Assembly (NCBI RefSeq): GCF_000384215.1
Contig: NZ_KB913032.1
Span: forward strand, 6,034,588-6,098,587
Length of the DNA stretch: 64,000 bases
DNA from: Amycolatopsis alba DSM 44262
Lineage (GTDB): Bacteria > Actinomycetota > Actinomycetes > Mycobacteriales > Pseudonocardiaceae
Direction: 5' to 3'
The number at the start of each line of letters is the position of its first letter. The stretch's first letter is position 1. The notes beneath the pieces were generated by a model that saw only the letters and a list, made by a program, of their open reading frames with translations, was not told the origin of the DNA and did not search any database. Shown here piece by piece: positions 5,612 to 49,581 of this stretch. Both the position numbers and the translations under genes were made by a program.

Positions 5612-5613
5612 CG

Positions 5614-6417: not shown

Positions 6418-6421
6418 TCCC

Positions 6422-13582: not shown

Positions 13583-13587
13583 AGACG

Positions 13588-14091
13588 ATGACTCGACTCG
13601 CGGTCCTGCTCGCGGTGGTGGCCACCGCGTTCGCGGCCTGGTTCGGCTACTCCTGGTGGGACGCGAGCCGGGACGACGGCGTCGCGCGGGCCACGGTCCG
13701 CGAGGACGCGTTGCAGGCGGGCAGACAGTCCGTGGCCGCATTGACCACTTTGGACTACCGGCAAGCCGAGCAGGGCTACCAGAACTGGCTGAACCTGTCG
13801 GGCGGTGCGCTGCACGACGAACTGGCGCGGGACCGGGAAGGCGGGCTCGGCCGCATTGGCCAGGCGAAGACCGTCACCACCGGCCGGGTCGTCGACGCCG
13901 CGGTGACCGAAGTGGACAGTGGCGGCGGGACCGCCGAGGTGATCGCCTCGGTCGAACTCGAGGTCCGGCCCGACGGCGGAGAAGCCGTGACCAAGCACAA
14001 CCGGTTCCGCGCCGGCCTGAACCGGACACCGGACGGGTGGCGCGTCACGTCACTCGGCCAGGTGCCGGTGACCGACACCGGAAAGTCCTGA
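13588..14091 (+). CDS. Mce-associated membrane protein (Mam), first copy
   Basis: A 167-residue protein with one N-terminal anchor (LAVLLAVVATAFAAWFGYSWW) and a small alpha+beta extracytoplasmic domain of NTF2-like type ending in a WRVTSLGQVPV strand. The ATG at 13588 follows a GGGAAGG ribosome site, five bases after MceF. Such Mam proteins follow mce operons in actinobacteria and stabilise the Mce complex. A second copy follows directly, as is common. Confidence 0.85.
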   Translation: MTRLAVLLAVVATAFAAWFGYSWWDASRDDGVARATVREDALQAGRQSVAALTTLDYRQAEQGYQNWLNLSGGALHDELARDREGGLGRIGQAKTVTTGRVVDAAVTEVDSGGGTAEVIASVELEVRPDGGEAVTKHNRFRAGLNRTPDGWRVTSLGQVPVTDTGKS

Positions 14092-14103
14092 GGAGAGACC
14101 GGG

Positions 14104-14751
14104 ATGACCACGAAACGGAAACCGGTGCGGCGCGCGGTGAAGGTGGCCGGGAAAATGGGCGGGAGCACGCGCGTCCTCGAAGCCCTTGAAGAGTCCGAAG
14201 CGTCGGTAGAGGACGCTGTGGTTCCTTCGGAGCCTGAGGTCGCTGCGCCGCCTGCGCGGCGGCGGGGCGCCGTGGTGTTCGGCGCGGTCGCGGTGGTGAT
14301 GGCGGGCCTCGCGGGGTGGTTCGCCATCGAAGCGCGGGACGCGACGTCGGTCCTGGCGCACAACACCGCGCTGACCGACGTCGCCACCACCGCCGAGGTG
14401 AGCGATCAAATCGGCAAGGCACTCGGCACGGTCTTCTCCTACCGCTTCGACGATCCCGCCAAGAGCGAGCAGGCCGCGAAAGAGGTCCTGACGGGGCCCG
14501 CGCTCGGGCAATACGACCAGCTGTTCGCGCAGGTCCGGGGGCTGGCGGCGGAGCAGAAGCTGGTCGTGACGTCGACCCCGGTGGTCTCGGGCGTCAAGGT
14601 TCTCGACGGAGACCGGGCGTCGCTTCTCGTGTTCCTGGACCAGACCGGTGTGCGCGGGGACGGGCAGCGCTCCACCGGTGCGGCCCAGTTGAGCGTGAGC
14701 GCCGAACGCTCCGACGGCCGCTGGCGAGTCACCGCCCTCGCCGCTGCCTGA
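14104..14751 (+). CDS. Mce-associated membrane protein (Mam), second copy
   Basis: A 215-residue protein. A basic and acidic cytoplasmic N-terminus of about 53 residues is followed by one membrane helix (GAVVFGAVAVVMAGLAGWFAI) and an NTF2-like domain ending RWRVTALAAA, similar in layout to the preceding gene. It is last in the mce operon, 12 bases after the first Mam gene, and ends just before an inverted repeat array that probably terminates transcription. Confidence 0.83.
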   Translation: MTTKRKPVRRAVKVAGKMGGSTRVLEALEESEASVEDAVVPSEPEVAAPPARRRGAVVFGAVAVVMAGLAGWFAIEARDATSVLAHNTALTDVATTAEVSDQIGKALGTVFSYRFDDPAKSEQAAKEVLTGPALGQYDQLFAQVRGLAAEQKLVVTSTPVVSGVKVLDGDRASLLVFLDQTGVRGDGQRSTGAAQLSVSAERSDGRWRVTALAAA

Positions 14752-33560: not shown

Positions 33561-33635
33561 GCGCGTTTAGCTCAGCGGGAGAGCGCTTCCCTGACACGGA
33601 AGAGGTCACTGGTTCAATCCCAGTATCGCGCACCA
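33561..33635 (+). tRNA. tRNA-Val (anticodon GAC)
   Basis: Clover-leaf parts are visible: D-arm GCTC/GAGC, anticodon stem CTTCC/GGAAG with loop CTGACAC (anticodon GAC), and T-arm ACTGG/CCAGT with loop TTCAATC. The acceptor stem is GCGCGTT against ATCGCGC with one mismatch (T6-T67). CCA is encoded at 33633-33635. Confidence 0.92.
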
Positions 33636-33671
33636 GGTTCACTTCCCCAGGTGAACCGGAGTTCGTACCGC

Positions 33672-33743
33672 GGGCGATTAGCTCAGGGGGAGAGCGCTTC
33701 GTTCACACCGAAGAGGTCACTGGTTCGATCCCAGTATCGCCCA
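33672..33743 (+). tRNA. tRNA-Val (anticodon CAC)
   Basis: The acceptor stem GGGCGAT/ATCGCCC is perfect. The anticodon stem CTTCG/CGAAG has loop TTCACAC (anticodon CAC), and the T-arm ACTGG/CCAGT has loop TTCGATC. CCA is not encoded. It is 36 bases after the other valine tRNA and probably in the same transcript. Confidence 0.93.
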
Positions 33744-33773
33744 CATAAAGGGTATCGTCAGAACCCATGAAAT

Positions 33774-34822: not shown

Positions 34823-36178
34823 CTATTTACCGATGGTCGGTGGAACGGCCGGGTACCCGGTCTCGGGGTCGACCAGCTTGTCTCCCTTTTCGGTGAACAG
34901 CGCGTCGTCGTCTTGGACGTACTTGCGTTGCCGCTCGCGGTCTTCCTCGCTTTTACCTCGTGCTCCACCGGGCGGCATCATGCCGGGAGTGCTACCGGGG
35001 CGGCCGCCGGCGCGCGAGGATCCTGCACCACTGACAGGGCCGGGCTCTCCAGGAACGCCGCGCATCCCCGTTTGCCGCCCCGCGCCCGGAGCACCACCGG
35101 TTCCACTGCCGGAACCGCCTCCGCCCGGAGTCCTTCCGCCTGCGCCTGGTCCGCTGCCAGGGACCGCGCCGGGGTTCCAGCCGCCCTCGAAGTACGGGTT
35201 TGCCGCGCGCGTCTCGGGTCCGGAGGGCACACCCAAGGAAGGAACGCCGGGGCCGGGGCTGACCGGGCCGGGGCTGGTCGCGGGTGGTGTCCATCCGGAG
35301 GTGGTTGTTTCCTCGTGAGCTGCCGGGTGCGGCACAGGGGCAGGAGTTGCGGTGTGCTCGCCTGGTCCCGCGTTCGTGGAAAACCCCGGCGTTACTGGCG
35401 CAGGTCCCGACGACGGCGCAGGTCTCGACGACGGTGGGGTCGCTGTTCCCGGTCCGGTATCGCGGTCGGAGCGGTCAGCACCGAATCCCTTGACCGGGCC
35501 GCGTTTCGCGTCCGGGGTGCCGGGGCCGGGAATGAGCGTGACCTCTCCGGCGTCAAACTCTCCGAGCGTGCCGTAGTCGCCGGTTAACAGCTTCGCTTGT
35601 GTGCGGGTGCTGGTGGCATAGGAGTTATAAGCTTCCGCGTTCTGCTTGGAGGTCTGGTTGTAGTCGCCAATCGACTTTTCCGTGTCGGTGTCCCACGGCA
35701 GAGCCGCATCCAGGAAGCTCTTCTCCGGTGGTTTGTCCGGCAGTGGCACCATTTTCTTCTGTGTGCTGTCAAAATGGCTCGCCACGTTGGTCACGTTGCC
35801 GCTGTTGTCGGCGAGCGTGTCACTGGTGACATTGAGCACGGAACTGAGTTTCTTCATCCGGGCCTGCGCGGCGTCCGAAGCGTGACCGGTCCAGGCGGAT
35901 TCGAACTTTCCCGCGAACGCGAGCACTTCCGACGACAGCGCGCGGTGATCCTCAGCCAAGTCCGACGCGGTACGCGCGCCGATGTGCCACAGCTTGCTTG
36001 ACCCGGCGAGCATCGCCTTCACTGCTTCGTCAATGGAGGTTGCCCGCCCTAGCCGGCCACCGTCGCCGAACAGGCCGCCGGCCCATTCGGCGGCGGCATG
36101 AAGACCGGCCTTCACACCGCCCTCGACCGTGTGCGCGGCTTTGGTGACCAGGTTCCGCGCGTCGTCCCACAGGCTCAC
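34823..36178 (-). CDS. PPE-like ESX substrate with a long Pro/Gly tail
   Basis: A 451-residue protein. The first about 200 residues are helical (LWHIGARTASDLAEDHRALSSEV onward) in the style of PPE/WXG100-type ESX substrates. They are followed by a low-complexity Pro/Gly/Ser/Thr region of about 180 residues and an acidic, charged C-terminus (KSEEDRERQRKYVQDDDALF). Such proteins are common ESX partners in Pseudonocardiales. The stop of the upstream lipoprotein gene is four bases before its start, so it is in the operon. Confidence 0.75.
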   Translation of the reverse strand: MSLWDDARNLVTKAAHTVEGGVKAGLHAAAEWAGGLFGDGGRLGRATSIDEAVKAMLAGSSKLWHIGARTASDLAEDHRALSSEVLAFAGKFESAWTGHASDAAQARMKKLSSVLNVTSDTLADNSGNVTNVASHFDSTQKKMVPLPDKPPEKSFLDAALPWDTDTEKSIGDYNQTSKQNAEAYNSYATSTRTQAKLLTGDYGTLGEFDAGEVTLIPGPGTPDAKRGPVKGFGADRSDRDTGPGTATPPSSRPAPSSGPAPVTPGFSTNAGPGEHTATPAPVPHPAAHEETTTSGWTPPATSPGPVSPGPGVPSLGVPSGPETRAANPYFEGGWNPGAVPGSGPGAGGRTPGGGGSGSGTGGAPGAGRQTGMRGVPGEPGPVSGAGSSRAGGRPGSTPGMMPPGGARGKSEEDRERQRKYVQDDDALFTEKGDKLVDPETGYPAVPPTIGK

Positions 36179-36182
36179 CGTG

Positions 36183-36818
36183 TCACGCTCCCGCCCGCTG
36201 TTTCAACGTGGACACCACGAGTCCGGCCATTTGCGCGGTCACCTCGCAGGAATCAGCCTTACCGCGCTTGCCGTCACCGAGAAAGCCGCCGACATCGACC
36301 GAGAGATCGTCGGCTATGCCGATCGTGACAGTGCAGTCTTGGTCTTTGTTGTTCGAGTACGCGACAGCGGGGAATCCTTGAATATCGGCCAATGGGCGCC
36401 AAATCGGATTCTTGGGCTGACTGTTTTTGTAGACGCCGCTAAGACCGTCGTGAGTTTTCGTTACGTAGGTCACGAGAATTTGACCAAGAGTGGCCGAGTT
36501 GGCCCATGTGCAGCCGTTGCCCACTGTCTCGACCAGGTTGTTGGGCTTGCCTGGAACCTCGACCCCGATGGCTTGCTTTACTTGTCCGGGGGTGAGCGCG
36601 GTTGAGCAAGGGTCGCCCGACAACACGGAAGCGGGCAGAGGATTAGTTACCTTTGGGGCGCCGGCGTATGGCAACGACGTGTTGGGACTATTGGAAGATG
36701 CAGGCGCACTTGAGGGGGTTTGGCTGACTGTATCTGTCGGGTCGCCCGTAGCGCACGCCCCGAGCAGCACGGCGATACCAGCCGCCAGCGCACTGCATTT
36801 CGCCGCCTTGGTCATCAT
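36183..36818 (-). CDS. DUF3558-family lipoprotein
   Basis: A 211-residue lipoprotein. The signal peptide ends in lipobox LLGACAT, then a Ser/Thr/Pro-rich linker, then a DUF3558 domain that starts SGDPCSTALTPGQV and contains GCTWAN, DCTVTIGIADD and SCEVTAQMAG. Such domains occur often beside ESX genes and in the outer part of receptor kinases like those at 29742. Its ATG overlaps the stop of the preceding gene by four bases. Confidence 0.85.
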   Translation of the reverse strand: MMTKAAKCSALAAGIAVLLGACATGDPTDTVSQTPSSAPASSNSPNTSLPYAGAPKVTNPLPASVLSGDPCSTALTPGQVKQAIGVEVPGKPNNLVETVGNGCTWANSATLGQILVTYVTKTHDGLSGVYKNSQPKNPIWRPLADIQGFPAVAYSNNKDQDCTVTIGIADDLSVDVGGFLGDGKRGKADSCEVTAQMAGLVVSTLKQRAGA

Positions 36819-37327
36819 CCGGCCATGCCCCCTTGGGTCTCGGTATCCGCGCCCACGCGGTTGATCGCAGTCTTGTTATCGGCATCGGTTTCGGTGGTCA
36901 TCCCCAGCGCCTTGCGAAGTTTCTTGCGCAAGGTTTCAAGGTATCGAATCTCATCGTCGATCTGTTGAACCGCTTTGTCGAACGCTGCCGCGCTGGTCCA
37001 CGGGGTCAGGGCATCCAAAGAGCCCCCGGTCAGTTTCCCGTTGTATTCGACGCTCACGACATCCTGCGCAGGCGGTTCGAGGCGTTGTAAAGTTTTCGCC
37101 GACAATTTCATCTGGCCCAGTCGAATCAGGAACCCGTTCACGTCTTCGAGTGCCGCGTGGGCCTGGTCGGAGCTGAGTGTGAAACCTTGACCGACTGTCG
37201 AGGTCGTGTCGTTAGCAGCCAACTCGGCGCGATGCCCCAGTTTCGATACCGTCTCGTAGTACCCCGCAGCCCCGGCGGCGAACAGTTCTTTCGCCAGCTC
37301 GGACGCTCTATCCCCACCCTCGCTCAT
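36815..37327 (-). CDS. Small helical protein heading the ESX module
   Basis: A 170-residue cytosolic-looking protein with no signal peptide. It opens MSEGGDRASELAKELFAAGA and has two helical regions separated by a short segment containing PPAQDVVSVEYNG. The second region is charged (DDEIRYLETLRKKLRKALG). It has the size and amphipathic pattern of ESX-linked WXG100/LXG-type proteins but lacks a clear WXG motif, so the name is left open. It is the first gene of the module. Confidence 0.55.
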   Translation of the reverse strand: MSEGGDRASELAKELFAAGAAGYYETVSKLGHRAELAANDTTSTVGQGFTLSSDQAHAALEDVNGFLIRLGQMKLSAKTLQRLEPPAQDVVSVEYNGKLTGGSLDALTPWTSAAAFDKAVQQIDDEIRYLETLRKKLRKALGMTTETDADNKTAINRVGADTETQGGMAG

Positions 37328-37819
37328 GCCCCTCTTGACCCCTCGTCAATGTGCGTGATCGGTGCGACCTATCGCGCTTGATCGGTTAGACCGATCGGCG
37401 GCGCATGTCATCGTAGTCGATCGGGCACAGTCTGTGGACTGCCTCCGGTGAACCCGCAGGTAACAACCCACTTTCCGGTGATCCTCACCCAGGCCGCGAA
37501 ACGCTGAGCAGCGCAGCCGATCGAGCGACCGATAATCGAACGGCAAATAGCCCGAGCAAGCGAGCCGAGGTTCGTGGGGGGGGGGTGCTGTACCTGATGC
37601 TGACCCGGCTACTGGACGCGAAGTGGCTCACCGACGGACGGGTCGATGGCTTAGCTGCTCGGAGCCCTCGCCTCATGACAAACTTTCTTGCTGGTGATAG
37701 CCGTCTTCGGCTTCGCGCTTGGGTTCACTCAGCGATCGATCGCTTGAATTCAGGAACCGTGAATCAATGGATGCGCGGCGCACAGAGACTTCGACTCTGA
37801 AAATCGCTGAAGTTTATCG
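37328..37819. other. Gene-poor junction between the ESX module and the lipid cluster
   Basis: About 490 bases without a supported gene. It contains the ESX module promoter region at its left edge, a run of ten G residues at 37576-37585, and short frames that look random. The base composition is lower in GC than in the lipid cluster. No insertion sequence or direct repeats flanking the module were seen. Confidence 0.5.
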
Positions 37820-39328
37820 CTACTTCGCCGGTCTCATATGAGAGCTGACAGCGGCGCCACTCACGAGACCTGCCACCACGAACAGTCCACAAGCGACCGC
37901 AGCGGACACCTGCAACCCGATAGTGCAAGCAACTCGGGCGGCGTCGAGCAACTCGCCGCCAACCTGTGAGGCGAGGCCGGACACGGCCGCCTCCGTTTGA
38001 GCAGGTCCCGACAAGGCGAGCTGTCGTGCCGCGTCGGGCACCCCGGCCGGGACGGCCAGATGTCCCGCGTACACCACGGCCGCCAGGGAACCGAACACCG
38101 TCGTCCCGAAACCGGCGCCCAGTTCGTAGCCCGTCTTCTCGACCGCCGCGGCGCCGCCCGCCTGGTCCGCCGAGGTCGCCGAAAGCAGGGTGTCGGTGCT
38201 CGACGTGAGCGCGAGCGCCATCCCCAGCCCCAGTCCGGTCAGCCCGGCACCGAGGAGCACCGGTGACGTCAGCGCGGCCGACCCCGAGGCCGGGACCAGC
38301 AGCGACACCGCCGCCACCGCGAACCCGGCCGTGCGGACCCGCGCGTTGCCGAACCGTCCCAGCAGCGTAGGGGTCACCACGCTCCCGACGGCCGACGCGC
38401 CCAGCACCAGGAGCAGCCGGCTTGCCGCCGCCGTCGGCGAGAGACCGAGCACCACTTGCAGATACTGGGCGAACAGCAGTCCGAGACCGACCAGTGTGCT
38501 CATCACCAGCAGGACCCCGCCCACGGCCGCCCGCACGCCCGGCACCCGGAACAGGGTGAGATCCAGCAGTGGTGGATCGGTCCGGCGCTGGCGGCGCACG
38601 AACAGTCCGATGAGGACACAGCCGGTCACGCCCGAAGCGACGGCCGGCAGCCAGGACCCCGGATGTCCGATGGCGAAAGCGATTCCGAGGACACCGCCCG
38701 CGGCGAGGGCGGCGCTGCGCGCGTCCCACGGCCGCTGTCCCGGTGGATTCCGGGGGAGCCAGCGCAGTGCCAGGACCACGGCGGCCAGGATCACCGGAGG
38801 GTTCAGCAGGAACGTCGCCCGCCAGCCCCACGTCTCCACGAGCACGCCGCCGAGGATCGGCCCGAACACCGAGCCGGTCCCCGCGATCCCGCTGCACACC
38901 GCGATCGCCGTGCGGCGGTGCCGCTGCTCCGGGAAGAGTTCGCGGAGCAGCGACATCGTGACCGGCATGATCATCGCGCCGCCGCAGCCGAGCAGCGCGC
39001 GAAAAGCCAGCAACGCCGGGACGTTCGGCGCGAAAGCGCATCCGAGCGACGCGATCCCGAACACGACGTACCCGGCGACCAGTACGCGTCGCCGTCCGTA
39101 CCGGTCGCCGAGGGTGCCGAACGGCAGCAGCAGCGGCGCGGCGGTCAGCGGGTAGATCGCCACGATCCACACCTGCGCCGCCGCACCGGGACGCAACTGC
39201 CGGACGAGGTCGGGCAACGCGACATGCAGTACCGTCGCGTCGACCGCCACGAGGAAGAGCCCGGCGCCGAGCACCGCCAGGAGCGGCCAGGCGCGGTCGG
39301 CCGCTCGCTCGGTCCGGGCCGTGGTCAC
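37820..39328 (-). CDS. MFS exporter, DHA2 (14-helix) type
   Basis: A 502-residue membrane protein. It carries the MFS motif GTLGDRYGRRRVLVAG between helices 2 and 3, motif C-like GIAGTGSVFGPILGG, and about 14 hydrophobic helices, which fits the DHA2 drug/lipid exporter family. The GTG at 39328 overlaps the PKS stop (GTGA), so it is coupled to the polyketide synthase. The open frame continues far upstream but only as the shadow of the PKS gene. The likely role is export of the product of the PKS pathway; this is inference from coupling. Confidence 0.88.
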   Translation of the reverse strand: MTTARTERAADRAWPLLAVLGAGLFLVAVDATVLHVALPDLVRQLRPGAAAQVWIVAIYPLTAAPLLLPFGTLGDRYGRRRVLVAGYVVFGIASLGCAFAPNVPALLAFRALLGCGGAMIMPVTMSLLRELFPEQRHRRTAIAVCSGIAGTGSVFGPILGGVLVETWGWRATFLLNPPVILAAVVLALRWLPRNPPGQRPWDARSAALAAGGVLGIAFAIGHPGSWLPAVASGVTGCVLIGLFVRRQRRTDPPLLDLTLFRVPGVRAAVGGVLLVMSTLVGLGLLFAQYLQVVLGLSPTAAASRLLLVLGASAVGSVVTPTLLGRFGNARVRTAGFAVAAVSLLVPASGSAALTSPVLLGAGLTGLGLGMALALTSSTDTLLSATSADQAGGAAAVEKTGYELGAGFGTTVFGSLAAVVYAGHLAVPAGVPDAARQLALSGPAQTEAAVSGLASQVGGELLDAARVACTIGLQVSAAVACGLFVVAGLVSGAAVSSHMRPAK

Positions 39329-42300
39329 AGGAGTCCCGCCAGATGTCGCGCCACGACATCGACGTGCGGCGGGTCGACCACCGACAGGTGATGCGCCTCG
39401 ACCGGCACGATCTCCAGCTCCGGGCACAGCTCGGCCCAGCCCGCCGCGAGATCCGTGCGCGAGTACCGCGGTTCCATCGCCAGTCCGGCCGCGTACTGCT
39501 CGACGGCCCGATAGAGCACGACCCGGCCGTCGTAGCGACGGGGCGTCGCGCGTTCGGCCGCCAGGGTGTCCAAAAAGGACTGACGCTGGTGCCGGAGCAC
39601 GCCGGGGCTGAGCAGACCGGCTTCGGCGACCCGTCGCATGGTCAGCTCGATCTGCTCCTCCTCGGGCAGCGGAGCCAGTTCCTCGTGGCCGAGCCGGACT
39701 TCGCGGCCATAGGTTCCCTCGACATAGCCGGTGAACCGCAGGAACCGCCGGGCGGACGACGCGCGCGGATCGAGGTCCGGTTCCGGGAGCGGGAGCATGG
39801 TGTCGATCAGCGCGACGAACTCGACCTCTTCGCCCTCTTCGGCGAGCCGTGCGGCGACGCCGTAGGCCAGCGCCCCGCCGAACGACCAGCCCGCCAGCCG
39901 GTACGGCCGGTCGCGGCGTTGTGCCCGCACCAACGGCAACAGCTGCTCGACCCGCTCCTCGATGCCGGCGCCGGGAACCCGCTCGAACCCGACACACGGC
40001 ACCGAGGTGGGCAGCCGGTCCAGCAGCGGCCGGTACACGGTGCACGTGCTGCCGCCGGGGTGGAACAGCAGCAGCGGCGCGACTCCCACTGAGCCAGGAG
40101 CGAGGATGTGGACCGGACCGCGTTCCTCCCTCGTGTCGAGGACGGCGCGGGCGACGTCGGCGATTGCCGCGAGCGAGTCGTGCCGGCGGAGTTCGGCGGC
40201 GTCGACAGGCGTGTCGAGTTCGGTGCCGAGGCCTTCGGCGAGCAGTTCGGCCAGCCGGTCCGGCGTGTCGGTCTCGGTCAGCCGGACGTGGGTGCCGCTC
40301 GCGTCGGCGCCGGTGTGCTCCTGCCACAGCCGCAGCACCAGGCGGTCGGCCGCGTCCCAGGCACGGCCACGGGCCGGACGCGGCTCCTCGTCGTCGCGAG
40401 GTGCGAGATCCCGGCTGAGGTCGGCGAGGGTCGCGCCCCGGAGCACGCTGACGGTGTCGGGTTCGGTGCCGAATTCCCGCCGGACGGCGTCGCGGATCCG
40501 GTTCGCCATCAGGGAATCCAGCCCGAGTTCGACGAGCGGGACGTCGGCGTCGATCCGATCGGGGCGCAGCCCCATGACGGCGGCGACGATCTCGGTCAGC
40601 CGGTCGCCGCCGCTCCGCACCGGTTCGGGTTCCGGCGTCCGTGCCGCGAACGACGGTGGCTCCTCGGCGGCGGTGTACCAGTGCCGTTCGTGCCGCCACG
40701 GCATCGGCGGGACGTCGACCAGCCGGGCGCCGTCGTCCGGATCGGCGGTGGTGATCCGGGTACCCGCGCAGTAGAGCCCGGCCGCGGCGGCGCCCAGCGA
40801 GCGGGCCTCGTCCTGACCCCGGCGCAGCGTCCCGGTGACGACGGCGTCGTGGATCCCTTCGGCGTCGAGCGTCCGCGACACCGAACCCCGCAGGATCGGA
40901 TGCGGCGACACCTCCAGGAAGACCCGGTGCCCGTCCGCGGCGGCGGCCGCCACGGCCTGCCGGAACCGCACCGGACGGCGCAGATGTGCGGCCCAGTACC
41001 CGGCGTCGAAATCCGGCAGCTCTCGCGGATCGGCCAGAACCGTGTCGTACCAAGGCACCGTCGGACGGCCACCGCCCAGTTCGGCGAGCGCCTCCCGGAG
41101 CTCGGGCAGGACGGGGTCGACACGGGCGGAGTGCCCGGCGACCTCGACCGGCAGCCGCCGCGCGGTCAGCCCGGCGGCCTCGAGTTCCGCGACGAGCAGA
41201 TCGAGCACGGTCGCGTCCCCGGCCACGGTCAGCTGACCCGGCGCGGATTCGACGGCGAGTTCGATGTCCGGGTACAGCTCCAGTTCCTCCGGCGCCAGTT
41301 CCACCGCCGCCATCGCCCCGCCCGGTCCGATGGTGCCCAGGAGCCGGGCACGGGTAGCCACCAGGTGGACGGCCTCGTCGGGGGTGAGCACGCCGCTCAC
41401 CACGGCGGCCGCCGCGGAGCCGAGGGAGTGCCCGACGACGGCCGCGGGCCGCACCCCGAGCGCCTCCCACTGGGCGGCCAGCGCGATCTGCGTCCCGAAG
41501 ATGGCGGTCTGGGTTTCGGGCAGGGACAACGAGTTCCCGGTGGTGAGCAAGGCGCGCAGCGAGCGGCCCGTGTGCTCGGTGAACAGGTCATGGAGCTTGT
41601 CGACCTGGGCGGCGAAGGCGGGCTCGGCGGCCAGCAGCCCGCGGCCCATCCCCGGCCACTGAGAGCCGTGGCCGGAGAACACGAACACCGGGCCGTCGGT
41701 GCTCAGCGCGGTCCCGGCGGCCGCGCCCGCGGGCAGCGGATCGGCGCCGGCGCCGACAGCGCGCAGCAGGACCGCCAGTTCGGCGGTGTCCCCGGCGACG
41801 ACGGCGGCGCGGTGCGGTCCGCCGTTGTCACGGCGGGACAGCGTGTGGGTGACGTCGGCGAGGGAAAGCGACGGCGTGGCTTCCAGCCAGTTCGCCAGCT
41901 GCGTCGCGCGTTCGGTGAGACGGTCGCGGGTGCGGGCGGAGAGCAGCCCGATCCGGACGTCTGTGTGGTCCCCGGCCGGTTCCAGCGCCGGGGCCTGTTC
42001 GAGGACGACGTGCGCGTTGGTCCCGCCGAATCCGAACGCCGACACCCCCGCCGTGGCACGGCCGGACCGCCGCGGCCACGGCGTCGGTTCGGTGACCACC
42101 TTCAGGCGCAGGTCGCCGAACGGGATGTGCGGATTGGGCGCGGAGAAGTGCAGCTGGGGCGGCAGTTCGTCGCGGGACAGCGCGAGCACGACCTTGATCA
42201 GCCCGGCGATCCCCGCGGCCGCCTCCGCGTGCGCGATGTTCGTCTTCACCGAACCGATCAGCAGCGGTGCGTCGGCCGGGCGGTCCTTGCCGAGAACCGC

Positions 42301-43518
42301 GCCGAGCGAGCGAGCCTCGATCGGGTCGCCCAGCAGGGTGCCGGTGCCGTGCGCCTCGACGTAGTCCACAGTGGACGGGTCGAGCCGGGCGCCGTGGTAC
42401 GCCGTGCGCAGCATGTCCTGCTGGGCGATGGGGTTCGGCGCCGCCATACCCTGTGACCGGCCGTCGGAGTTGACCGCGGTGGAACGGATCACCGCCAGCA
42501 CCCGGTCGCCGTCGTATTCGGCGTCTGTCAGCCGTTTGAGCACGACGACGCCGCAGCCTTCGGCACGCGCGATGCCGTCGGCGTCCGCGGCGAACGTCTT
42601 GCACCGGCCGTCGCCGGCGAGCAGCCCGGCCGCGGCGAACGCGGCCGTCGGTCCCGGTAGCAGCATGAGGTTCACACCTCCGGCCAGGGCAAGATCCGCC
42701 TCGCCGTCGCGCAGCGCGCGGACAGCGTGGTGCACCGCGACCAGCGAAGACGAGCAGGCGGTGTCCACCGCCATGCTCGGCCCGCGCAGGTCGTAGACGT
42801 AGGACAGCCGATTGGCGGAGATACTCCCGGCCGCGCCGGTGGCCGTCCAGAGGTCGACGCCGCCGCCCGACATCGTGAGATGCCCGTAGTCGTGGGTGGA
42901 GATCCCGGTGAACACGCCGGTCCGGCTGCCGCGCAGGGACGCCGGGGCGATCCCGGCGTGTTCCAGTGCAGCCCAGGCGACCTCCAGCAGCATCCGCTGT
43001 TGCGGGTCCATTGTGGACGCTTCACGCGGGGTGATGCCGAAGTGTTCGGCGTCGAATCCGGCGACGTCGTCGAGGAAGCCGCCGACGATCGGTGCCGCGT
43101 CGGCGTTCCAGCGGCCCGGCGGCGCGGTGCGGACGGCGTCCCGCCCGCTGCGCAGCAGGTCCCAGAACTCGTCGAGGCCGTTCGCTCCCGGCCAGCGGCA
43201 GCCGAGGCCGATCACGGCGATCGGATCGGTCCGGCGACGGTCAGTGCCCGCCTGCTCCGGTTCCGGTTCGGCGCTGCCGGTGAGACTGCGGGCGAGGTGG
43301 TCGATGGTCGGGCTTTCCCACAACAGGGTGGCGGGAAGCGGGGTGCCGAGCAGGTCTTCGAGGTCGGCGGCGATACCGACGGCCTGGCGGGAGGACAGGC
43401 CGTAGTCGCTGAGCGGGCGGTCGGCTTCGAGCCGGGCCGCGTCGACGCCGGTGTGCTCGGCGACGGTGTCGAGCAGCCAGCGGCGCAGCGCGGGGGTGTC
43501 GAACGACGGGTTTCTCAT
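39325..43518 (-). CDS. Pks13-like condensing polyketide synthase (ACP-KS-AT-ACP-TE)
   Basis: A 1397-residue enzyme. N-terminal ACP: DYGLSSRQAV (Ser43). KS, about 96-520: DTACSSSL (Cys255), VEAHGTGT (His390), NIAHAEAAAG (His430). AT, about 610-900: GHSLG (Ser698). Second ACP: LGLDSLM (Ser1002). TE, about 1140-1397: GWSFGG (Ser1212), Asp1239 and a C-terminal HH (1376-1377). There is no KR, DH or ER, so it should make one Claisen condensation and release a 3-keto product. This is the domain order of mycobacterial Pks13, which joins two fatty chains; Pks13 is longer, about 1730 residues. The first ACP would be loaded by the FAAL encoded just upstream. The AT has VAGHS where methylmalonyl ATs have YASHS. 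Confidence 0.9.
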   Translation of the reverse strand: MRNPSFDTPALRRWLLDTVAEHTGVDAARLEADRPLSDYGLSSRQAVGIAADLEDLLGTPLPATLLWESPTIDHLARSLTGSAEPEPEQAGTDRRRTDPIAVIGLGCRWPGANGLDEFWDLLRSGRDAVRTAPPGRWNADAAPIVGGFLDDVAGFDAEHFGITPREASTMDPQQRMLLEVAWAALEHAGIAPASLRGSRTGVFTGISTHDYGHLTMSGGGVDLWTATGAAGSISANRLSYVYDLRGPSMAVDTACSSSLVAVHHAVRALRDGEADLALAGGVNLMLLPGPTAAFAAAGLLAGDGRCKTFAADADGIARAEGCGVVVLKRLTDAEYDGDRVLAVIRSTAVNSDGRSQGMAAPNPIAQQDMLRTAYHGARLDPSTVDYVEAHGTGTLLGDPIEARSLGAVLGKDRPADAPLLIGSVKTNIAHAEAAAGIAGLIKVVLALSRDELPPQLHFSAPNPHIPFGDLRLKVVTEPTPWPRRSGRATAGVSAFGFGGTNAHVVLEQAPALEPAGDHTDVRIGLLSARTRDRLTERATQLANWLEATPSLSLADVTHTLSRRDNGGPHRAAVVAGDTAELAVLLRAVGAGADPLPAGAAAGTALSTDGPVFVFSGHGSQWPGMGRGLLAAEPAFAAQVDKLHDLFTEHTGRSLRALLTTGNSLSLPETQTAIFGTQIALAAQWEALGVRPAAVVGHSLGSAAAAVVSGVLTPDEAVHLVATRARLLGTIGPGGAMAAVELAPEELELYPDIELAVESAPGQLTVAGDATVLDLLVAELEAAGLTARRLPVEVAGHSARVDPVLPELREALAELGGGRPTVPWYDTVLADPRELPDFDAGYWAAHLRRPVRFRQAVAAAAADGHRVFLEVSPHPILRGSVSRTLDAEGIHDAVVTGTLRRGQDEARSLGAAAAGLYCAGTRITTADPDDGARLVDVPPMPWRHERHWYTAAEEPPSFAARTPEPEPVRSGGDRLTEIVAAVMGLRPDRIDADVPLVELGLDSLMANRIRDAVRREFGTEPDTVSVLRGATLADLSRDLAPRDDEEPRPARGRAWDAADRLVLRLWQEHTGADASGTHVRLTETDTPDRLAELLAEGLGTELDTPVDAAELRRHDSLAAIADVARAVLDTREERGPVHILAPGSVGVAPLLLFHPGGSTCTVYRPLLDRLPTSVPCVGFERVPGAGIEERVEQLLPLVRAQRRDRPYRLAGWSFGGALAYGVAARLAEEGEEVEFVALIDTMLPLPEPDLDPRASSARRFLRFTGYVEGTYGREVRLGHEELAPLPEEEQIELTMRRVAEAGLLSPGVLRHQRQSFLDTLAAERATPRRYDGRVVLYRAVEQYAAGLAMEPRYSRTDLAAGWAELCPELEIVPVEAHHLSVVDPPHVDVVARHLAGLL

Positions 43519-45260
43519 CGCGCCAGTGCCTTTCCGTAGTCGCCGGCGAGGTAGCGGTCGCGGCAGGCGCTCCGCGCGATCTTGCCGCTGGAGGTCCGCG
43601 GGACCAGGCCCGCCGGGACGAGCACGACGGCACGCAGCGCGAGCCCGTGCGCGTCGGAGACCAGCCGCCGGATCGACACGGCGAGGGCCCGTTCGTCCTC
43701 TGTGGTCAGCGCTGTGTGGCCGCGATGTTCGGCGACGACGACCGCGGCTTCGGTGTCGGCGCCTTCGACGGCGAACGCGGCGACGCTGCCGGGGCGGATG
43801 TCGCGGTCGGCCGCGGCCGCCGTCGCTTCGACGTCCTGCGGGTAGTGGTTGCGGCCGTCGACGATGAGCAGGTCCTTGATCCGGCCCGCGATGTAGACCT
43901 CGCCGTCGTACCGCACGCCGAGGTCCCCGGTGCGCAACCAGGGCCCTGCCGGGAGCCCGGTGTGGTCGCCGGTCAGCCGGGCGCCGAAGGTCTCGGTGCT
44001 CTCCACAGGTTTCTGCCAGTAGCCGGTGCCGACGTTGGGCCCGTGTACCCAGATCTCGCCGACCGAGCCGTCTTCCAGCGCGACACCGGTTTCCGGGTCG
44101 ACCAGCGCGACGTGCTGACCCACCGGCACACCGCAGGCCACCAGCCGGAGCCCGTCGTCCGCCTGCCGTGCCGTCCCCGCTCCCAGTGCCGTGCGGTCGA
44201 AGGTGGTGACGCGCGGGGGAGCGCCAGGGCCGGTGGTGACGAAGACTGTCGCCTCGGCCAGCCCGTACGAGGGGCGCGTCTTCTCCGGCAGGTAGCCGGA
44301 ATCGGCGAAGGTGGTGTGGAACCTGTCGAGGACGTCGGGATTGATCGGTTCCGCGCCGTTGACGATCGCGGCGACGCGGTCGAGGCGGAGCTTGGCACGG
44401 TCCTCCTCGCGCACCCGGCTCGCGGCGTAGTGGAACGCGAAGTTCGGGGCGGCGCTCCAGCTCCCGTTGTGGTCGCCGAGCAACTCAAGCCAGCGCACCG
44501 GTCGTTCGATGAAGGCCAGCGGATCCATCAGCACCGACCGCATGCCCATCGCCAGCGGCGTGATCAGGCCGAGCACGAGACCCATGTCGTGGAACAACGG
44601 CAGCCAGGACACCGTGGTCCCCGTCGCCGGGTCGATGCCGAGCCCCCGCACCGCCTGGCTGACGTTGGCCAGCACGTTCGCGTGCGTCAGGACCACGCCC
44701 GCCGGGCTGCGGGTCGAACCGGAGGTGTACTGCAGATAGGCCACGTCCTCCGGCGCCGGATCCGGGGCGGGCCACGCGCGGGCCGGGCCTTCGGCGGGCT
44801 TGTCGGCCGCGACGACGGCGACGCGTTCGCCGCCGGGCAGCCCGGCGAGGAATTCGCGGACCGCGTCCTCGGCCGAGAAGGTGGTGATGACCGCGGTGGG
44901 GGAGCAGTCGGTCAGCACGGCGGCGAGCCGTCCGGTGTGCCCTGGCAGCCCAGGGTCGAACAGCGGTACGGCGATCGCGCCCGCGGTGATCGCGCCGAGG
45001 AAGGCGACGACGTAGTCGGCGCTTTGCGGGCACAGCACGGCCACCCGGTCGCCGGGCCGGACGGGCAGCGCGCCCGCGACGGCGTCGACGCGCTCCCGGA
45101 GCTGCTTCCAGGTCAGGGTCCGCCGCCGCCCGGCGCGATCGGTCGCGAAGTCGGCGAAGGTCAGCGCGGGCCGGTCGCCGTCGGTGTCCGCCCAATGCCG
45201 GAGGCAGGCGGGGAGGGTGGGGCCGGGGATGGCGGGCAGGTTTTCGGGGGCCAGGGACAT
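43515..45260 (-). CDS. Fatty acyl-AMP ligase (FadD32-like FAAL)
   Basis: A 581-residue ANL-superfamily enzyme. The P-loop is QYTSGSTRSPAGVV (about 177-190), then LPLFHDMGLV, SYGLAEATVFV, the acyl-binding region, LRTGDLG, GRIKDLLIVDGRNHYPQDVE and the C-terminal Lys560 in PRTSSGKIARS. The segment after SYGLAEATVFV contains the extra residues (TTGPGAPPRVTTFDR) typical of FAALs rather than acyl-CoA ligases, and matches FadD32 closely in style. It should activate a fatty acid as acyl-AMP and load it on the N-terminal ACP of the PKS. The PKS ATG overlaps its stop (ATGA), so the two proteins are coupled. Confidence 0.9.
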   Translation of the reverse strand: MSLAPENLPAIPGPTLPACLRHWADTDGDRPALTFADFATDRAGRRRTLTWKQLRERVDAVAGALPVRPGDRVAVLCPQSADYVVAFLGAITAGAIAVPLFDPGLPGHTGRLAAVLTDCSPTAVITTFSAEDAVREFLAGLPGGERVAVVAADKPAEGPARAWPAPDPAPEDVAYLQYTSGSTRSPAGVVLTHANVLANVSQAVRGLGIDPATGTTVSWLPLFHDMGLVLGLITPLAMGMRSVLMDPLAFIERPVRWLELLGDHNGSWSAAPNFAFHYAASRVREEDRAKLRLDRVAAIVNGAEPINPDVLDRFHTTFADSGYLPEKTRPSYGLAEATVFVTTGPGAPPRVTTFDRTALGAGTARQADDGLRLVACGVPVGQHVALVDPETGVALEDGSVGEIWVHGPNVGTGYWQKPVESTETFGARLTGDHTGLPAGPWLRTGDLGVRYDGEVYIAGRIKDLLIVDGRNHYPQDVEATAAAADRDIRPGSVAAFAVEGADTEAAVVVAEHRGHTALTTEDERALAVSIRRLVSDAHGLALRAVVLVPAGLVPRTSSGKIARSACRDRYLAGDYGKALAR

Positions 45261-45372
45261 GGCGTCTCCTCGGTGTTTGGTGGTGAACCCGCGACCGCGA
45301 TCGACGTCGGCAGGGCGCGGCCCGGTCAGCTACGTCACGGTGGCGGCCGAGGCGGGTTCGGGGGTCGGGGTT

Positions 45373-46032
45373 TCAGCGGCCGAGCGGTCCGGCGGCGTGC
45401 CGCCAGGCGGCGACGGCGAGAGCGTCGAGGTCGAGGCCGGTGGTCCCGGCGTCACGAAGCACGACCAGTACGTCGTCGGCGGCGATGGCGACGGTGCGCA
45501 GACGCAGTCCGGGCAGTTCGGGGGGCTGTCCGGGTAACGTCAGGAGTTGTTGGTAGGAAAGGGTTTTCGCATCCGGAACGACGGGCGCCGGGTGGACGGT
45601 GACGGTCGACAACGCGGTACCGGTCGCGTCGTCGACCGTCACCTTCGAGCACCGTCCGGCCTGCGCGGTCCACGCCGCCAGATCGGGCGGGTTCGTCCTG
45701 CGTGCGACCAGTTCGGAGACCTGGCCGCCGGGCACCGCGGACTGGAAACCCCGACCGGCGGCGCCGGTGCCGACCAGCCTGCCGCGGACGACGTCCTCGC
45801 AGCCACCGACGTCGACCCGGCTCTCTTCCCGGTCTGTTGTGGACAGTGCCGCGGTCAGATCGAAATCTTCGCGCGCGGACGCGTGCGGGACGGTCTCCGG
45901 AGGGAGCAGAGCAGCGGGCGGAACGGCGGGAGAACGCGGCGTCGCGGCCGCCTGAATCGATTCTCCCGGCACGCCGGAAATGGTGGCCACCGCGGCGGCG
46001 GAGATGACGAGAGCACGAATTCGGGCAGTCAT
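45373..46032 (-). CDS. Secreted protein of unknown function upstream of the FAAL gene
   Basis: A 219-residue protein with a signal peptide (RIRALVISAAAVATISGVPG) and a Pro/Ala-rich linker. The mature domain has two Cys (GGCEDVV and GRCSKVT), in a layout resembling the outer sensor domains of actinobacterial kinases, but I cannot name a family. It is on the same strand as the FAAL with a 112-base gap and divergent from the antigen 85-like gene. In mycobacteria a cutinase-like Culp6 gene occupies a comparable place; this protein shows no serine hydrolase motif. Confidence 0.6.
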   Translation of the reverse strand: MTARIRALVISAAAVATISGVPGESIQAAATPRSPAVPPAALLPPETVPHASAREDFDLTAALSTTDREESRVDVGGCEDVVRGRLVGTGAAGRGFQSAVPGGQVSELVARRTNPPDLAAWTAQAGRCSKVTVDDATGTALSTVTVHPAPVVPDAKTLSYQQLLTLPGQPPELPGLRLRTVAIAADDVLVVLRDAGTTGLDLDALAVAAWRHAAGPLGR

Positions 46033-46478
46033 GAATAGCCCTTTCGGAAGGGTCCTGAGGGGGTCACGGTCCCTTCGGTGGGACGCAGGCGCCGGGGTTG
46101 CGTCAGGGGACGCCGAACCGGGGCGGCACGACGAAGGCTACGACGGGAAATCGAATACCGGAAGGTGTCAAGAGAACGTCAATATCCTTCGTGTACTGGG
46201 CGTGAGCTGCGACTTTCGAGCTTTTCGCTGGTGTGCGAGCCAGTTTGGTACTCCCGTGCCACAGTCGCTCACTGTGCGTGAGCGACGGGTCACCCTGCCG
46301 GGGGAGGCCGGTGCATTTCTTGTTTCCCTGGCATTCACATTGTCCTCCCGGATCGTGGACAGGACAATTGCCTGGAGGGGGCTCTTCCGCTTAACGTGTC
46401 GGCTCTCCGGATTTCCTTTGCGGGTAATCGCCGTCACATTTTCGAATTCGATCGAACGACCGGGACAAAGGATTACGT
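46033..46478. promoter_or_regulatory. Divergent control region of the lipid cluster
   Basis: This 446-base gap holds the promoters of both operons. It contains a perfect 9-bp inverted repeat, GTCGCTCAC and GTGAGCGAC (46263-46271 and 46277-46285, 5-base spacing), a good candidate operator. A second, 7-bp repeat pair ATTGTCC/GGACAAT lies at 46339 and 46362. AAAGGA before the ATG at 46479 is the ribosome site. Confidence 0.5.
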
Positions 46479-47525
46479 ATGCGCAATACTTCGAGGCGGC
46501 CGCGGGCTGTCGCGGTGCTGGCGGCCGTGACCTGCTTGCTGCCGACCGTCGCCGTCGCCCCGGCCCGTGCCGAGAGCGGTGTCCCGGACGCCCGCGCCGA
46601 CGACGGCTCACACGTCGTCGCCCAGACCACTGTGGACGGTGATCCGCGGATGCTGGATCTCACCGTGCGCTCGGTCGGCGTCGGCGGCTACGCGATGGTG
46701 CGGCTGATCCTGCCGTCTCGGTGGGACGCCGAACCGGACCGGAAATGGCCTGCGGTGTACCTGCTCGCCGGGGAGACGCGGCTGCAGGACTATCGCGGCT
46801 GGACCGCGAACACCGACATCCGGAAACTCGCCGACGACTCCGGCGCTTTGGTGGTGATGCCGGGGTCCGGTTCCGCGGGCTTCTTTTCCGACTGGTGGAA
46901 TTACGGCAAGAGCGTCGTCCTGAATCACTGGGAGACGTTCACCGCCGTCGAGATCCCGCAGCTGATCGATCGCGGCTATCGCGGGGACGGGCGGCGGGTG
47001 GCGGCGGGGCTCTCGCTCGGCGGCTACGGCGCGGTGGAACTGGCTGCCCGGAGGCCCGGCGTGTTCCGGTTCGCCGGATCGTTCAGCGGCAACCTCAATC
47101 CGACCGGTCCGTACGGCGAGCTGCTGACCAGCGCGATCGTCGCCTCGGCCCGGCAGGATCCCGAGGCGCTCTGGGGTGACCGGCGGCGCGAGGCGTCCCG
47201 CTGGGACGCGCACGATCCGCTGGTGAACGCCGACCGCCTGCGCGGCACCGAGCTGTACCTGTCGACGGGCAACGGCCTGCCGGGCCCGTTCGACGGGAAG
47301 CTCCCGATCGACGTCCTCCCCGGCGCGATGCTGCTCGAATTCCTGTGCTCCGGCCAGACCACCGCGATGGCGGACCGGCTGAACCGGCTCGGTGTCCCGG
47401 TCACGACGGACTTCTACGGGCCGGGGACGCACCACTGGGCGTACTGGCAGGACCAGCTGCACAAGACCTGGCCGCGGATGCTGAACGCGCTCGCCGCGCC
47501 GGTGAAGACAGGGGAGGCGTCGTGA
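46479..47525 (+). CDS. Antigen 85-like secreted acyltransferase (mycolyltransferase fold)
   Basis: A 348-residue secreted alpha/beta hydrolase. The signal peptide is followed by a core that matches Ag85: LLAGETRLQDYRGW, VMPGSGSAGFFSDWW, WETFTAVEIP, nucleophile elbow AGLSLGGYG (Ser179), SFSGNLNPTG and the His motif GTHHWAYW (His319). Ag85 enzymes move mycolic acids between trehalose glycolipids and the cell wall. In Ag85C the catalytic Glu228 sits in FLEGL; the corresponding residue here appears to be Pro281 (VLPGA), with Glu287 nearby, so the acid may have moved. Its stop overlaps the SDR start, coupling it to the reductase. Confidence 0.85.
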   Translation: MRNTSRRPRAVAVLAAVTCLLPTVAVAPARAESGVPDARADDGSHVVAQTTVDGDPRMLDLTVRSVGVGGYAMVRLILPSRWDAEPDRKWPAVYLLAGETRLQDYRGWTANTDIRKLADDSGALVVMPGSGSAGFFSDWWNYGKSVVLNHWETFTAVEIPQLIDRGYRGDGRRVAAGLSLGGYGAVELAARRPGVFRFAGSFSGNLNPTGPYGELLTSAIVASARQDPEALWGDRRREASRWDAHDPLVNADRLRGTELYLSTGNGLPGPFDGKLPIDVLPGAMLLEFLCSGQTTAMADRLNRLGVPVTTDFYGPGTHHWAYWQDQLHKTWPRMLNALAAPVKTGEAS

Positions 47526-48355
47526 CCCGTCCATCCTTTGTGGTCACCGGGGCTTCGAGCGGGATCGGCCGCGCCTGCGTGGCCGAACTCATCCGGCGGG
47601 GCGCCCATGTCTGGGCCGGTGTGCGCACCGACGCGGACGAAACGGAACTCGCCCGCACCCACGGCGAAGCGGTCACCGTCCTGCGGATGGATCTCCGTGA
47701 CGCGGCGTCGATCGCGGCGTGCGGGGAGAAGGTCGCGGCGGCGGGACCGTTGCGGGGCCTGGTGAACAACGCCGGGATCGCCCGGCCCGGACCGCTGGAA
47801 CATGTCCCGCTCGAGGATTTCCGGCAGCAGCTGGAGGTCAACGTCACCGGTCAGCTCGCCGTCACGCAGGCGATGCTGCCCGCCCTGCGAGCCGCACCCG
47901 CCGCCAGGGTGGTGACGGTCGGGTCGATGGGCGGGCGGATCGCCGGCCCGATGGTCGGGCCCTATCACACGTCGAAGTTCGCCCTGGTCGGCTTGACCGA
48001 CAGCCTGCGTGCGGAACTGGCGCCGTCCGGGATCGACGTCGTCCTCGTCGAACCCGGCGCGGTCGCCACCGCCATCTGGCCGCGTGCCCGCGCCGCCGCC
48101 GAAGAAGTACGCGCGGCTTTGCCGGAAGTCGCGCGGGAAAGGTACGCGGCGCAACTGGAAGAGGCCGAACGCAGTGCCGAGCGTTCCGCACGGAACGGTG
48201 TGCCGCCGGAGCGGGCCGCGCGGGTCGTGGTCCACGCGCTCACCGCCCGCCGTCCCGCGCCGCGCTACCTGGTCGGCCGGGACGCGCGTGCCGCGGCGGT
48301 GCTGGCGAACCTGCCGTTCCGGCTCCGTTACCGGTTGACGGCGGCGAAGCGGTGA
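47522..48355 (+). CDS. Short-chain dehydrogenase/reductase (CmrA/Rv2509-like role)
   Basis: A 277-residue SDR. The cofactor loop is TGASSGIG, NNAG follows, the catalytic residues are Ser135, Tyr148 and Lys152 (YHTSK), and the nucleotide specificity region has VRTDADE. It starts at GTG 47522, overlapping the preceding stop. In mycobacteria an SDR (CmrA) reduces the 3-keto product of Pks13 to the 3-hydroxy acid. The position next to an Ag85-like and a Pks13-like gene makes the same role likely here, as inference. Confidence 0.85.
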   Translation: MTRPSFVVTGASSGIGRACVAELIRRGAHVWAGVRTDADETELARTHGEAVTVLRMDLRDAASIAACGEKVAAAGPLRGLVNNAGIARPGPLEHVPLEDFRQQLEVNVTGQLAVTQAMLPALRAAPAARVVTVGSMGGRIAGPMVGPYHTSKFALVGLTDSLRAELAPSGIDVVLVEPGAVATAIWPRARAAAEEVRAALPEVARERYAAQLEEAERSAERSARNGVPPERAARVVVHALTARRPAPRYLVGRDARAAAVLANLPFRLRYRLTAAKR

Positions 48356-49581
48356 CCCGGCTTGTCGTGATCGTCGCTCCCGGTTCGCGCGGCGACGTCC
48401 AGCCGTGTATCGCCCTGGGGCGCGGGCTCCACGGTGACCGGGTCCGGGTGCTGGCGGCCGAGCGATTCCGGGCTTGGGTGACCGGGCACGGCCTGGAGTT
48501 CGCGCCGCTCTCGGCGGATCCCGGCGAGATCCTCGGTTCGGACGGCGGCCGCGAATGGACCGACGGCGGGCGCACTCCCGCGACGTTCCTGCGTGGTCTG
48601 CGAGGTGCGCTGGCCCCGGTGCTGGAACGCCTGCTTGCCGATGTCCGCAAAGGAGCGACAGGGGCGGACCTCGTGCTCGCCCCGACGCTGGGTTTCCTCG
48701 GCGCGCACCTGGGTGCCGCGCTCGGCGTCCCCGACGTCGAACTGCATTACCAGCCCAGTGTGCCGACGAGGAAGTTCGCGCATCCGCTGCTTCCGTGGGC
48801 GGCCAAGGCAGGCCCGTGCGGACGGCGGCTGAGCTTCCGCGCCGTCGACGCCGTCGCCTGGCAGGTGCTGCGGCCCGAGGTGGACCGGTGGCGTGGTGCG
48901 GAACTCGGTCTCCCGGCGGCGGGATGGCGTGGCCCCCGGCGGTCGGAAACCCCCGTGCTGTGCGGTTTTTCCGGCGCCGTGGTGCCCCGGCCGAAGGATT
49001 GGCCCGCGAGGGTCCACGTCACCGGGTACTGGTTCCTCGAGACCCCCGCCGGGTGGCGGCCGGACCCGCGACTGCGGGACTTCCTGGCCTCGGGGCCGCC
49101 TCCGGTGTATGTCGGTTTCGGCAGTATGCGGCCGTCGGAGGCGGAGCGGACGTTCGCCGCCGTCCGCACGGCGTTGCGTCGTGTCGGGCTGCGCGGCCTG
49201 CTCGCCACCGACGCCGGGGCAGACGACGATGATCTGCTGATGGTTCAGGACGTCCCGCACGCGTGGCTCTTCCCGCGGACCGCCGCGGTGGTGCATCACG
49301 GCGGCGCGGGTACGACCGCGGCCGCGTTGCGCGCGGGTGCCCCGTCGCTGATCTGCCCGGTCTTCGCCGACCAGCCCTACTGGGGCGACCGGGTGGCCCG
49401 CCTCGGCGCCGGGCCGCGTCCGCTGCCGTTGCGGGAACTCACCGCGGACGCCCTGACCGCGCGGTTGCTGGAGCTGTCCGGGAACCTCCTGTTCCGTCGC
49501 GAGGCGCAGTACGTCGCCGCGCGGCTGCGCGAGGAGGACGGGGTGGCGCGTGCGTGCGAGGTGCTGCGGGAGGTGGGTTAG
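48352..49581 (+). CDS. Lipid glycosyltransferase, UGT/MGT family
   Basis: A 409-residue GT1 enzyme. The N-terminal region begins VVIVAPGSRGDVQPCIALG, the acceptor-domain start typical of sterol and glycopeptidolipid glycosyltransferases. The C-terminal half has PVYVGFGSM and the donor-binding motif VHHGGAGTTAAALRAGAPS, with DQPYWG following. It starts at GTG 48352, overlapping the SDR stop. It resembles mycobacterial glycopeptidolipid/phenolic glycolipid transferases, so the product of this cluster may be glycosylated. The sugar is not predictable. Confidence 0.85.
   Translation: MTRLVVIVAPGSRGDVQPCIALGRGLHGDRVRVLAAERFRAWVTGHGLEFAPLSADPGEILGSDGGREWTDGGRTPATFLRGLRGALAPVLERLLADVRKGATGADLVLAPTLGFLGAHLGAALGVPDVELHYQPSVPTRKFAHPLLPWAAKAGPCGRRLSFRAVDAVAWQVLRPEVDRWRGAELGLPAAGWRGPRRSETPVLCGFSGAVVPRPKDWPARVHVTGYWFLETPAGWRPDPRLRDFLASGPPPVYVGFGSMRPSEAERTFAAVRTALRRVGLRGLLATDAGADDDDLLMVQDVPHAWLFPRTAAVVHHGGAGTTAAALRAGAPSLICPVFADQPYWGDRVARLGAGPRPLPLRELTADALTARLLELSGNLLFRREAQYVAARLREEDGVARACEVLREVG

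Follow-up and report, generated by a model that had tools for sequence, protein, structure and literature searches.

The 64-kb window analysed here (the whole stretch of DNA, G000:C1:6034588-6098587) belongs to a 9.81-Mb single-contig Amycolatopsis genome and carries, at positions 37820-49581, a cluster of seven genes related to the machinery of mycolic acid synthesis. Translation of the open reading frames places them in two divergent operons, separated by an intergenic inverted repeat. The features are as follows:

37820-39328, minus strand: major facilitator superfamily (MFS) exporter (MFS_1), at the end of the left operon; its GTG start overlaps the stop of the synthase gene by 4 bases
39325-43518, minus strand: Pks13-type polyketide synthase (PKS), 1397 aa, identified by Pfam, NF040607, PDB match, trees and residues
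43515-45260, minus strand: FadD32-like fatty acyl-AMP ligase (FAAL), 581 aa, identified by Pfam AMP-binding, PDB match and tree
45373-46032, minus strand: small secreted-type protein, 219 aa, with two invariant cysteines (C78, C128)
46340-46367, no strand: inverted repeat TTGTCC-N16-GGACAA, between the divergent operons
46479-47525, plus strand: antigen 85 (Ag85)-like acyltransferase/esterase, secreted-type, 348 aa (Pfam Esterase, PF00756)
47522-48355, plus strand: short-chain dehydrogenase/reductase (SDR), 277 aa (Pfam adh_short; TGASSGIG and YxxxK motifs)
48352-49581, plus strand: GT1 glycosyltransferase, 409 aa (Pfam EryCIII-like_C and Glyco_transf_28)

Four-base overlaps link the genes at the FAAL/PKS, PKS/MFS, Ag85/SDR and SDR/GT1 junctions. 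The open reading frames and Pfam matches thus agree with the initial annotation of this DNA in the seven genes, their strands, the two divergent operons and the overlaps. Within the window, the translations set the gene ends, while the starts at all other loci are approximate, several having been trimmed by the gene caller. The MFS_1 profile scores 161.6 bits on the exporter; the frame 37764-39359, considered for the same gene, was dropped as the wrong frame.

The synthase has the domain order ACP-KS-AT-ACP-TE that had been read from the sequence initially (ACP, acyl carrier protein; KS, ketosynthase; AT, acyltransferase; TE, thioesterase). Pfam locates the domains, all on the minus strand, as follows:

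43279-43491: N-terminal ACP
41995-43227: KS
40795-41688: AT
40411-40605: C-terminal ACP
39328-40077: TE

The catalytic residues are in place (S43, C255/H390/H430, S698, S1002 and S1212/H1377), and the best PDB match of the protein is Pks13. For comparison, synthases of the window type were called type A, those of a second locus in the host genome (L041) type B and those of a third kind type C. The outgroup PKSs were hand-picked from search matches; one of the first 20 (L169) proved to be type B, leaving 19. In a tree of the N-terminal ACP, KS and AT, types A, B and C form one group with ten true Pks13s against the 19 other PKSs, with a Shimodaira–Hasegawa-like approximate likelihood ratio (SH-aLRT) support of 99. 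Single-domain trees recover the Pks13-containing group with supports of 97 (KS) and 99 (AT), and the value is again 99 after the addition of 25 database relatives, which gave a tree of 76 rows. These 25 rows, which include Streptomyces, Kitasatospora, Actinospica, Saccharopolyspora, Actinosynnema and Actinokineospora, were taken from 120 listed of 2068 database matches. In the larger tree, a support of 95 unites type A and true Pks13 with seven database rows; six of these seven lack dehydratase (DH) and ketoreductase (KR) domains and the seventh (P0190) has DH domains. The sister of true Pks13, at 99, consists of two database rows. Some type A synthases carry the database names "polyketide synthase 13" or "mycolic acid condensase", showing that the resemblance has already been seen by annotation software.

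For the partner ligase the support is lower. FadD32 is the best PDB match of the FAAL, and in the FAAL tree types A and B group with FadD32 and five other rows at only 83, with type C and most other FAALs outside. The initial annotation had named a grouping with unrelated polyketide pathways as the result that would speak against it; the PKS was found with Pks13 and the FAAL, more weakly, with FadD32.

The Ag85-like protein has its best fold and sequence matches among the mycoloyltransferases (antigen 85, PS1/MytA). Its structure model shows a mycoloyltransferase fold with the triad S179/E287/H318; the underlying alignment includes five relatives from mycobacteria or corynebacteria, which may favour that fold.

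The seven genes are inherited together. The Ag85-like gene is present at an identity of at least 79% in 37 of the 80 genomes of the genus examined (19 at ≥92%, the host included, and 18 at 79-83%), and the best copies in the remaining 43 reach 45% at most. A matching synthase exists in all 37, on the same contig and about 3 kb away in 35; in the other two (G022, G037) it lies on another contig of a fragmented assembly. A search of named genomes with the Ag85-like protein yielded 27 loci. Twenty of them, at 78-96% identity, belong to Amycolatopsis species including A. azurea, A. orientalis, A. regifaucium, A. rifamycinica and A. vancoresmycina, which places the host in this genus; the remaining seven are distant and come from Streptomyces, Mycobacterium and Corynebacterium. 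The complete seven-gene set occurs at 18 of the 20 Amycolatopsis loci, and the two others (L093 and L102) run off contig ends. Nine genes flanking the cluster in the window were also sought; some are present at all 11 close loci and none at the 12 more distant ones (L043, L044, L051 and L095-L103). The seven genes therefore keep together even where their chromosomal site differs, and the unit has the borders drawn initially. Its conservation across related genomes, which had been proposed as a check, is thereby seen. Ratios of non-synonymous to synonymous substitution (dN/dS) range from 0.07 to 0.36 across the seven genes in five comparisons.

The inverted repeat between the operons occurs only once in the 64-kb window, where none is expected by chance, and every one of the 21 loci keeps it; the spacer measures 16 bases in 20 of them and 6 in the last. 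Its position and conservation make it a probable operator common to both operons. The exceptional locus (L096, A. pretoriensis) has a spacer ten bases shorter, which is about one helical turn, as might be expected for a dimeric operator.

Related gene sets were found well beyond this locus. The second locus of the host genome (L041, G000:C1:8193500-8213400) carries a FAAL, a PKS, an AccD4-group carboxyltransferase, an Ag85-like protein with a signal-like start and an MFS protein. It resembles the window cluster in its FAAL, its Ag85-like gene and a synthase that begins with an ACP followed by KS and AT and ends with ACP and TE, the PKS and the FAAL being 53% identical to those of the window over the aligned parts. 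It differs in the DH and KR domains of its 2125-aa synthase (ACP-KS-AT-DH-KR-ACP-TE) and in the carboxyltransferase of its operon; no relative of the window SDR or GT1 was found in the 20 kb at this locus. One genome (G067) has type A and no second Ag85-like match at a threshold of 0.001, a hint that type A can do without the second locus.

Twenty Ag85-like neighbourhoods outside the mycolate family (f8) were hand-picked from the best matches. Seven hold a FAAL-PKS-AccD-Ag85 set, five in the family of the host (L054, L057, L060, L063, L065) and two in another family of the order (L064, L066), and one is of type C (L071); L169, from the genus of the host, is a further case of the FAAL-PKS-AccD-Ag85 set. 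In the AccD tree, the proteins of these eight AccD-bearing loci and of L041 group at 91. At 97 this group is united with true AccD4 and with five rows that resemble AccD4, while AccD5-like proteins fall outside; we take the labels AccD4 and AccD5 from gene place and from general knowledge of these families. Among 197 genomes of the class, the window synthase has a match at 1e-200 in 11, the host included, some of these being ordinary PKSs. Six neighbourhoods were hand-picked from the ten other genomes. Two of one family (L207, L209) show AccD, FAAL, a short PKS and an Ag85-like gene, and two of another (L208, L210) a FAAL-PKS-Ag85-MFS order. In a third family (L206), an Ag85-like gene, a GT1 47% identical to that of the window and an MFS gene lie beside the synthase, with no FAAL in the stretch, and the neighbourhood from the mycolate family (L211) has a FAAL and PKSs with no Ag85-like or AccD gene. 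L207 and L209 share with the window the FAAL, the Ag85-like gene and the short synthase (without DH and KR by Pfam in L209). They differ in that AccD adjoins the FAAL and in that no relative of the window SDR, GT1 or MFS was found within 20 kb.

True mycolate loci have the order FAAL-Pks13-AccD4, with Ag85-family genes upstream, in all ten that were fetched. The fbp-fadD32-pks13-accD4 locus of Mycobacteriaceae is like the window cluster in having a FAAL directly upstream of an ACP-KS-AT-ACP-TE synthase and an Ag85-family gene nearby, with the PKSs in one clade. The window cluster differs from it in lacking accD4, in having a stand-alone SDR, a GT1 and an MFS gene, in the shorter synthase (1397 aa against 1680 positions of the Pks13 model), in an Ag85-like protein of another clade without the DGLR segment, and in a host genus reported to be free of mycolates. 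Taken over several families, these loci indicate that FAAL, Pks13-type synthase and Ag85-type enzyme form a set, accompanied or not by an AccD4-type carboxylase, that extends beyond the mycolate producers. In the third type of locus (L046, L047, L048, L052, L071), a FAAL accompanies a PKS of 1873-2190 aa, and the Ag85-like gene overlaps the PKS stop by 1-4 bases; no signal peptide is seen in the Ag85-like protein at the approximate starts called, and this protein may be an intracellular release enzyme.

Several results weigh against a close tie to the mycolate pathway. On the NCBIfam model for mycolic Pks13 (NF040607, mycolic_Pks13), the window synthase scores 1273.7 bits, under the curated cut-off of 2100, which is passed in 11 of the 12 genomes of family f8 searched. 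Its FAAL reaches 556.3 bits on the FadD32 model (NF038339; cut-off 975), and two general FAAL models score higher (587.4 and 564.9). The KS-only tree puts type A with type B at 90, and grouping type A with the DH/KR-bearing type B is not rejected by an approximately unbiased (AU) test (p-AU 0.34). On this indecisive result, the claim that the window PKS is firmly sister to true Pks13 was given up. Nor was the loss of DH and KR kept as a trait of the Pks13 branch, because seven further database rows that lack these domains are found at other places in the tree, so that it is no marker of Pks13 kinship.

The Ag85-like protein adds to these points. In all seven type A rows, AGET replaces DGLR, a segment that is present as DGLR or DGMR in 22 of the 24 mycolate-locus rows (one of the others has another sequence and one is cut short there). 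In the Ag85 tree, to which each mycolate locus contributed up to four Ag85-family matches and each other locus one, the 24 mycolate-locus rows form one group and type A another, each with a support of 100. The DGLR/DGMR segment has a role in sugar binding; if its loss means the same as in antigen 85, the type A enzyme would use an acceptor other than trehalose. Moreover, 12 of the 20 hand-picked neighbourhoods have no FAAL-PKS pair beside the Ag85-like gene, so that Ag85-like proteins have other contexts too. Finally, no accD4 or other carboxylase gene and no MmpL gene was found in the cluster by open reading frames and Pfam. That absence had been pointed out initially and stands for the cluster, but not for the genome as a whole, which has six carboxyltransferase matches, an AccD4-group enzyme at the second locus and 13 MMPL matches elsewhere.

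Plain orthology with Pks13, FadD32 and Ag85 was therefore dropped, given the scores under the curated cut-offs and the missing DGLR segment. Of the initial names, "Pks13-type" is upheld by the trees and the domain order but not by the NF040607 score, "FadD32-type" more weakly by its grouping and not by NF038339, and "Ag85-like transferase" by fold and triad, the protein lying outside the mycoloyltransferase clade. As judged from its sequences, the window cluster is kin of the mycolate machinery and not a member of it.

The best reading is that the cluster product would be a branched 3-hydroxyacyl lipid, glycosylated and exported, made by a condensation of the FadD32/Pks13 type; its alpha-branching and its attachment to a sugar are predictions. 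In the pathway that we infer, substrates, branch length, acceptor, order of steps and role of the secreted protein included, the FAAL would adenylate a fatty acid and load it onto the N-terminal ACP of the synthase. The AT would load an alpha-carboxylated acyl-CoA, whose side chain is probably long and which carboxylases elsewhere in the genome would supply, onto the C-terminal ACP, and the KS would couple both chains in one Claisen condensation. The TE of Pks13 releases its product onto trehalose; here the TE would free a 2-alkyl-3-oxo product, perhaps directly onto a sugar acceptor. Because the synthase has no KR, the 3-oxo group would be reduced by the stand-alone SDR. The GT1, whose nearest solved relative is a sterol 3-beta-glucosyltransferase, followed by GtfA/GtfB, would add a sugar to the lipid or build the acceptor, and the MFS protein would export the lipid. 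Outside the cell, the Ag85-like enzyme would transfer or remove the acyl group, with the secreted protein as a putative binding partner. The predicted model of this secreted-type protein has a fold like that of the PknH extracellular domain, TiME and Rv0999. No Pfam profile matches it over its cut-off (DUF5642 alone comes up, at 19.3 against 26.2), and a PDB sequence search gave no useful match (best E 0.15).

On balance, it is somewhat probable that the seven genes work as a single unit, which would make an acylated glycolipid by mycolate-type chemistry and export it. The synthase might instead use a short extender (malonyl or methylmalonyl), so that the product would be a simple 3-hydroxy or 2-methyl-3-hydroxy fatty acid glycoside, a surfactant of the rhamnolipid kind, with the Ag85-like protein as an esterase. 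This appears unlikely, as the AT clusters with Pks13 ATs against the 19 others at 99, the AFH/YASH motif seen in 14 of these 19 is missing from the window AT, and the nearest matches of the Ag85-like protein in fold and sequence are mycoloyltransferases. The motif is also missing from the AT of the five remaining PKSs, which lessens the force of its absence. A secreted bioactive product (lipid antibiotic or signal) in place of an envelope lipid is rather improbable; the GT1 and the Ag85-like protein would then serve in tailoring or self-protection. An accessory distribution (37 of 80 genomes) over different chromosomal sites suits a secondary metabolite, and the best NCBIfam match of the GT1, a weak one, is the rifamycin-inactivating Rgt (94.7 bits, cut-off 800). 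Conversely, the relatives of mycoloyltransferases and of mycobacterial envelope proteins in the cluster point to the envelope. This explanation overlaps the acylated-glycolipid reading, which leaves the final place of the lipid undefined.

A functionless remnant of a mycolate pathway is extremely improbable. One of the 80 genomes does hold a decayed copy of the window cluster (L050, G061:C1:7810000-7828000), consisting of the FAAL and the C-terminal part of the PKS, with no Ag85-like, SDR or GT1 match. Elsewhere, the seven genes persist at 18 of 20 loci, with catalytic residues present and the dN/dS ratios given above; decay of the cluster itself was dropped, its genes being intact and under constraint.

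An Mce lipid-transport operon lies at 5599-14751 in the window; the four of its genes that were tested include two MlaE permeases and MlaD/Mce proteins, and PucR-type regulators come immediately after it. A second Amycolatopsis genome (L049, G030:C1:4983000-5001000) has this operon and these regulators at 65-84% identity, with a FAAL-PKS-Ag85 cluster placed exactly between the two, so a lipid transporter locus has hosted a related cluster. At L049, the PKS (5242-11629) seems split over two overlapping frames and may be broken or reflect a sequencing slip. Next to the cluster in the window, the minus strand at 34823-37327 shows a PPE-like match, weak and under its cut-off, together with a DUF3558 protein and a small protein that matches no Pfam profile, and two tRNA-Val genes lie nearby (33561-33744).

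The initial annotation had noted that the product would be undescribed if the organism belonged to a mycolate-less genus such as Amycolatopsis, and this is indeed the host genus. According to PMC8532670, Amycolatopsis was defined as a nocardioform genus without mycolic acids and with arabinose and galactose in the wall. Vincent et al. 2018 (PMC6194230) describe mycolic acids as exclusive to Corynebacteriales, Ag85 genes as present only in mycolate-positive species, Pseudonocardiales as having arabinogalactan without mycolates, and the origin of the mycomembrane as a mystery. What the sequences reveal in Amycolatopsis is relatives of the kit for condensation and transfer, not mycolates. No published description of these loci was found among the titles and abstract openings listed by searches of open-licence literature.

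Tentatively, and with a nearly even chance of being right, mycolic acid synthesis could be regarded as one branch of an older, widespread actinobacterial system. Its four parts (FAAL, Pks13-type synthase, AccD4-type carboxylase and Ag85-type enzyme) would go together in bacteria regarded as mycolate-free. Amycolatopsis would then have at least two versions, making undescribed branched 3-hydroxyacyl lipids, and the mycomembrane would have arisen by recruiting a ready-made unit. Since relatives of the four parts occur together in Amycolatopsis and in further families, there are concrete genes with which to approach the question of mycomembrane origin. These relatives also point to a likely new lipid class and provide a setting outside mycobacteria in which chemistry of the Pks13/Ag85 type can be studied.

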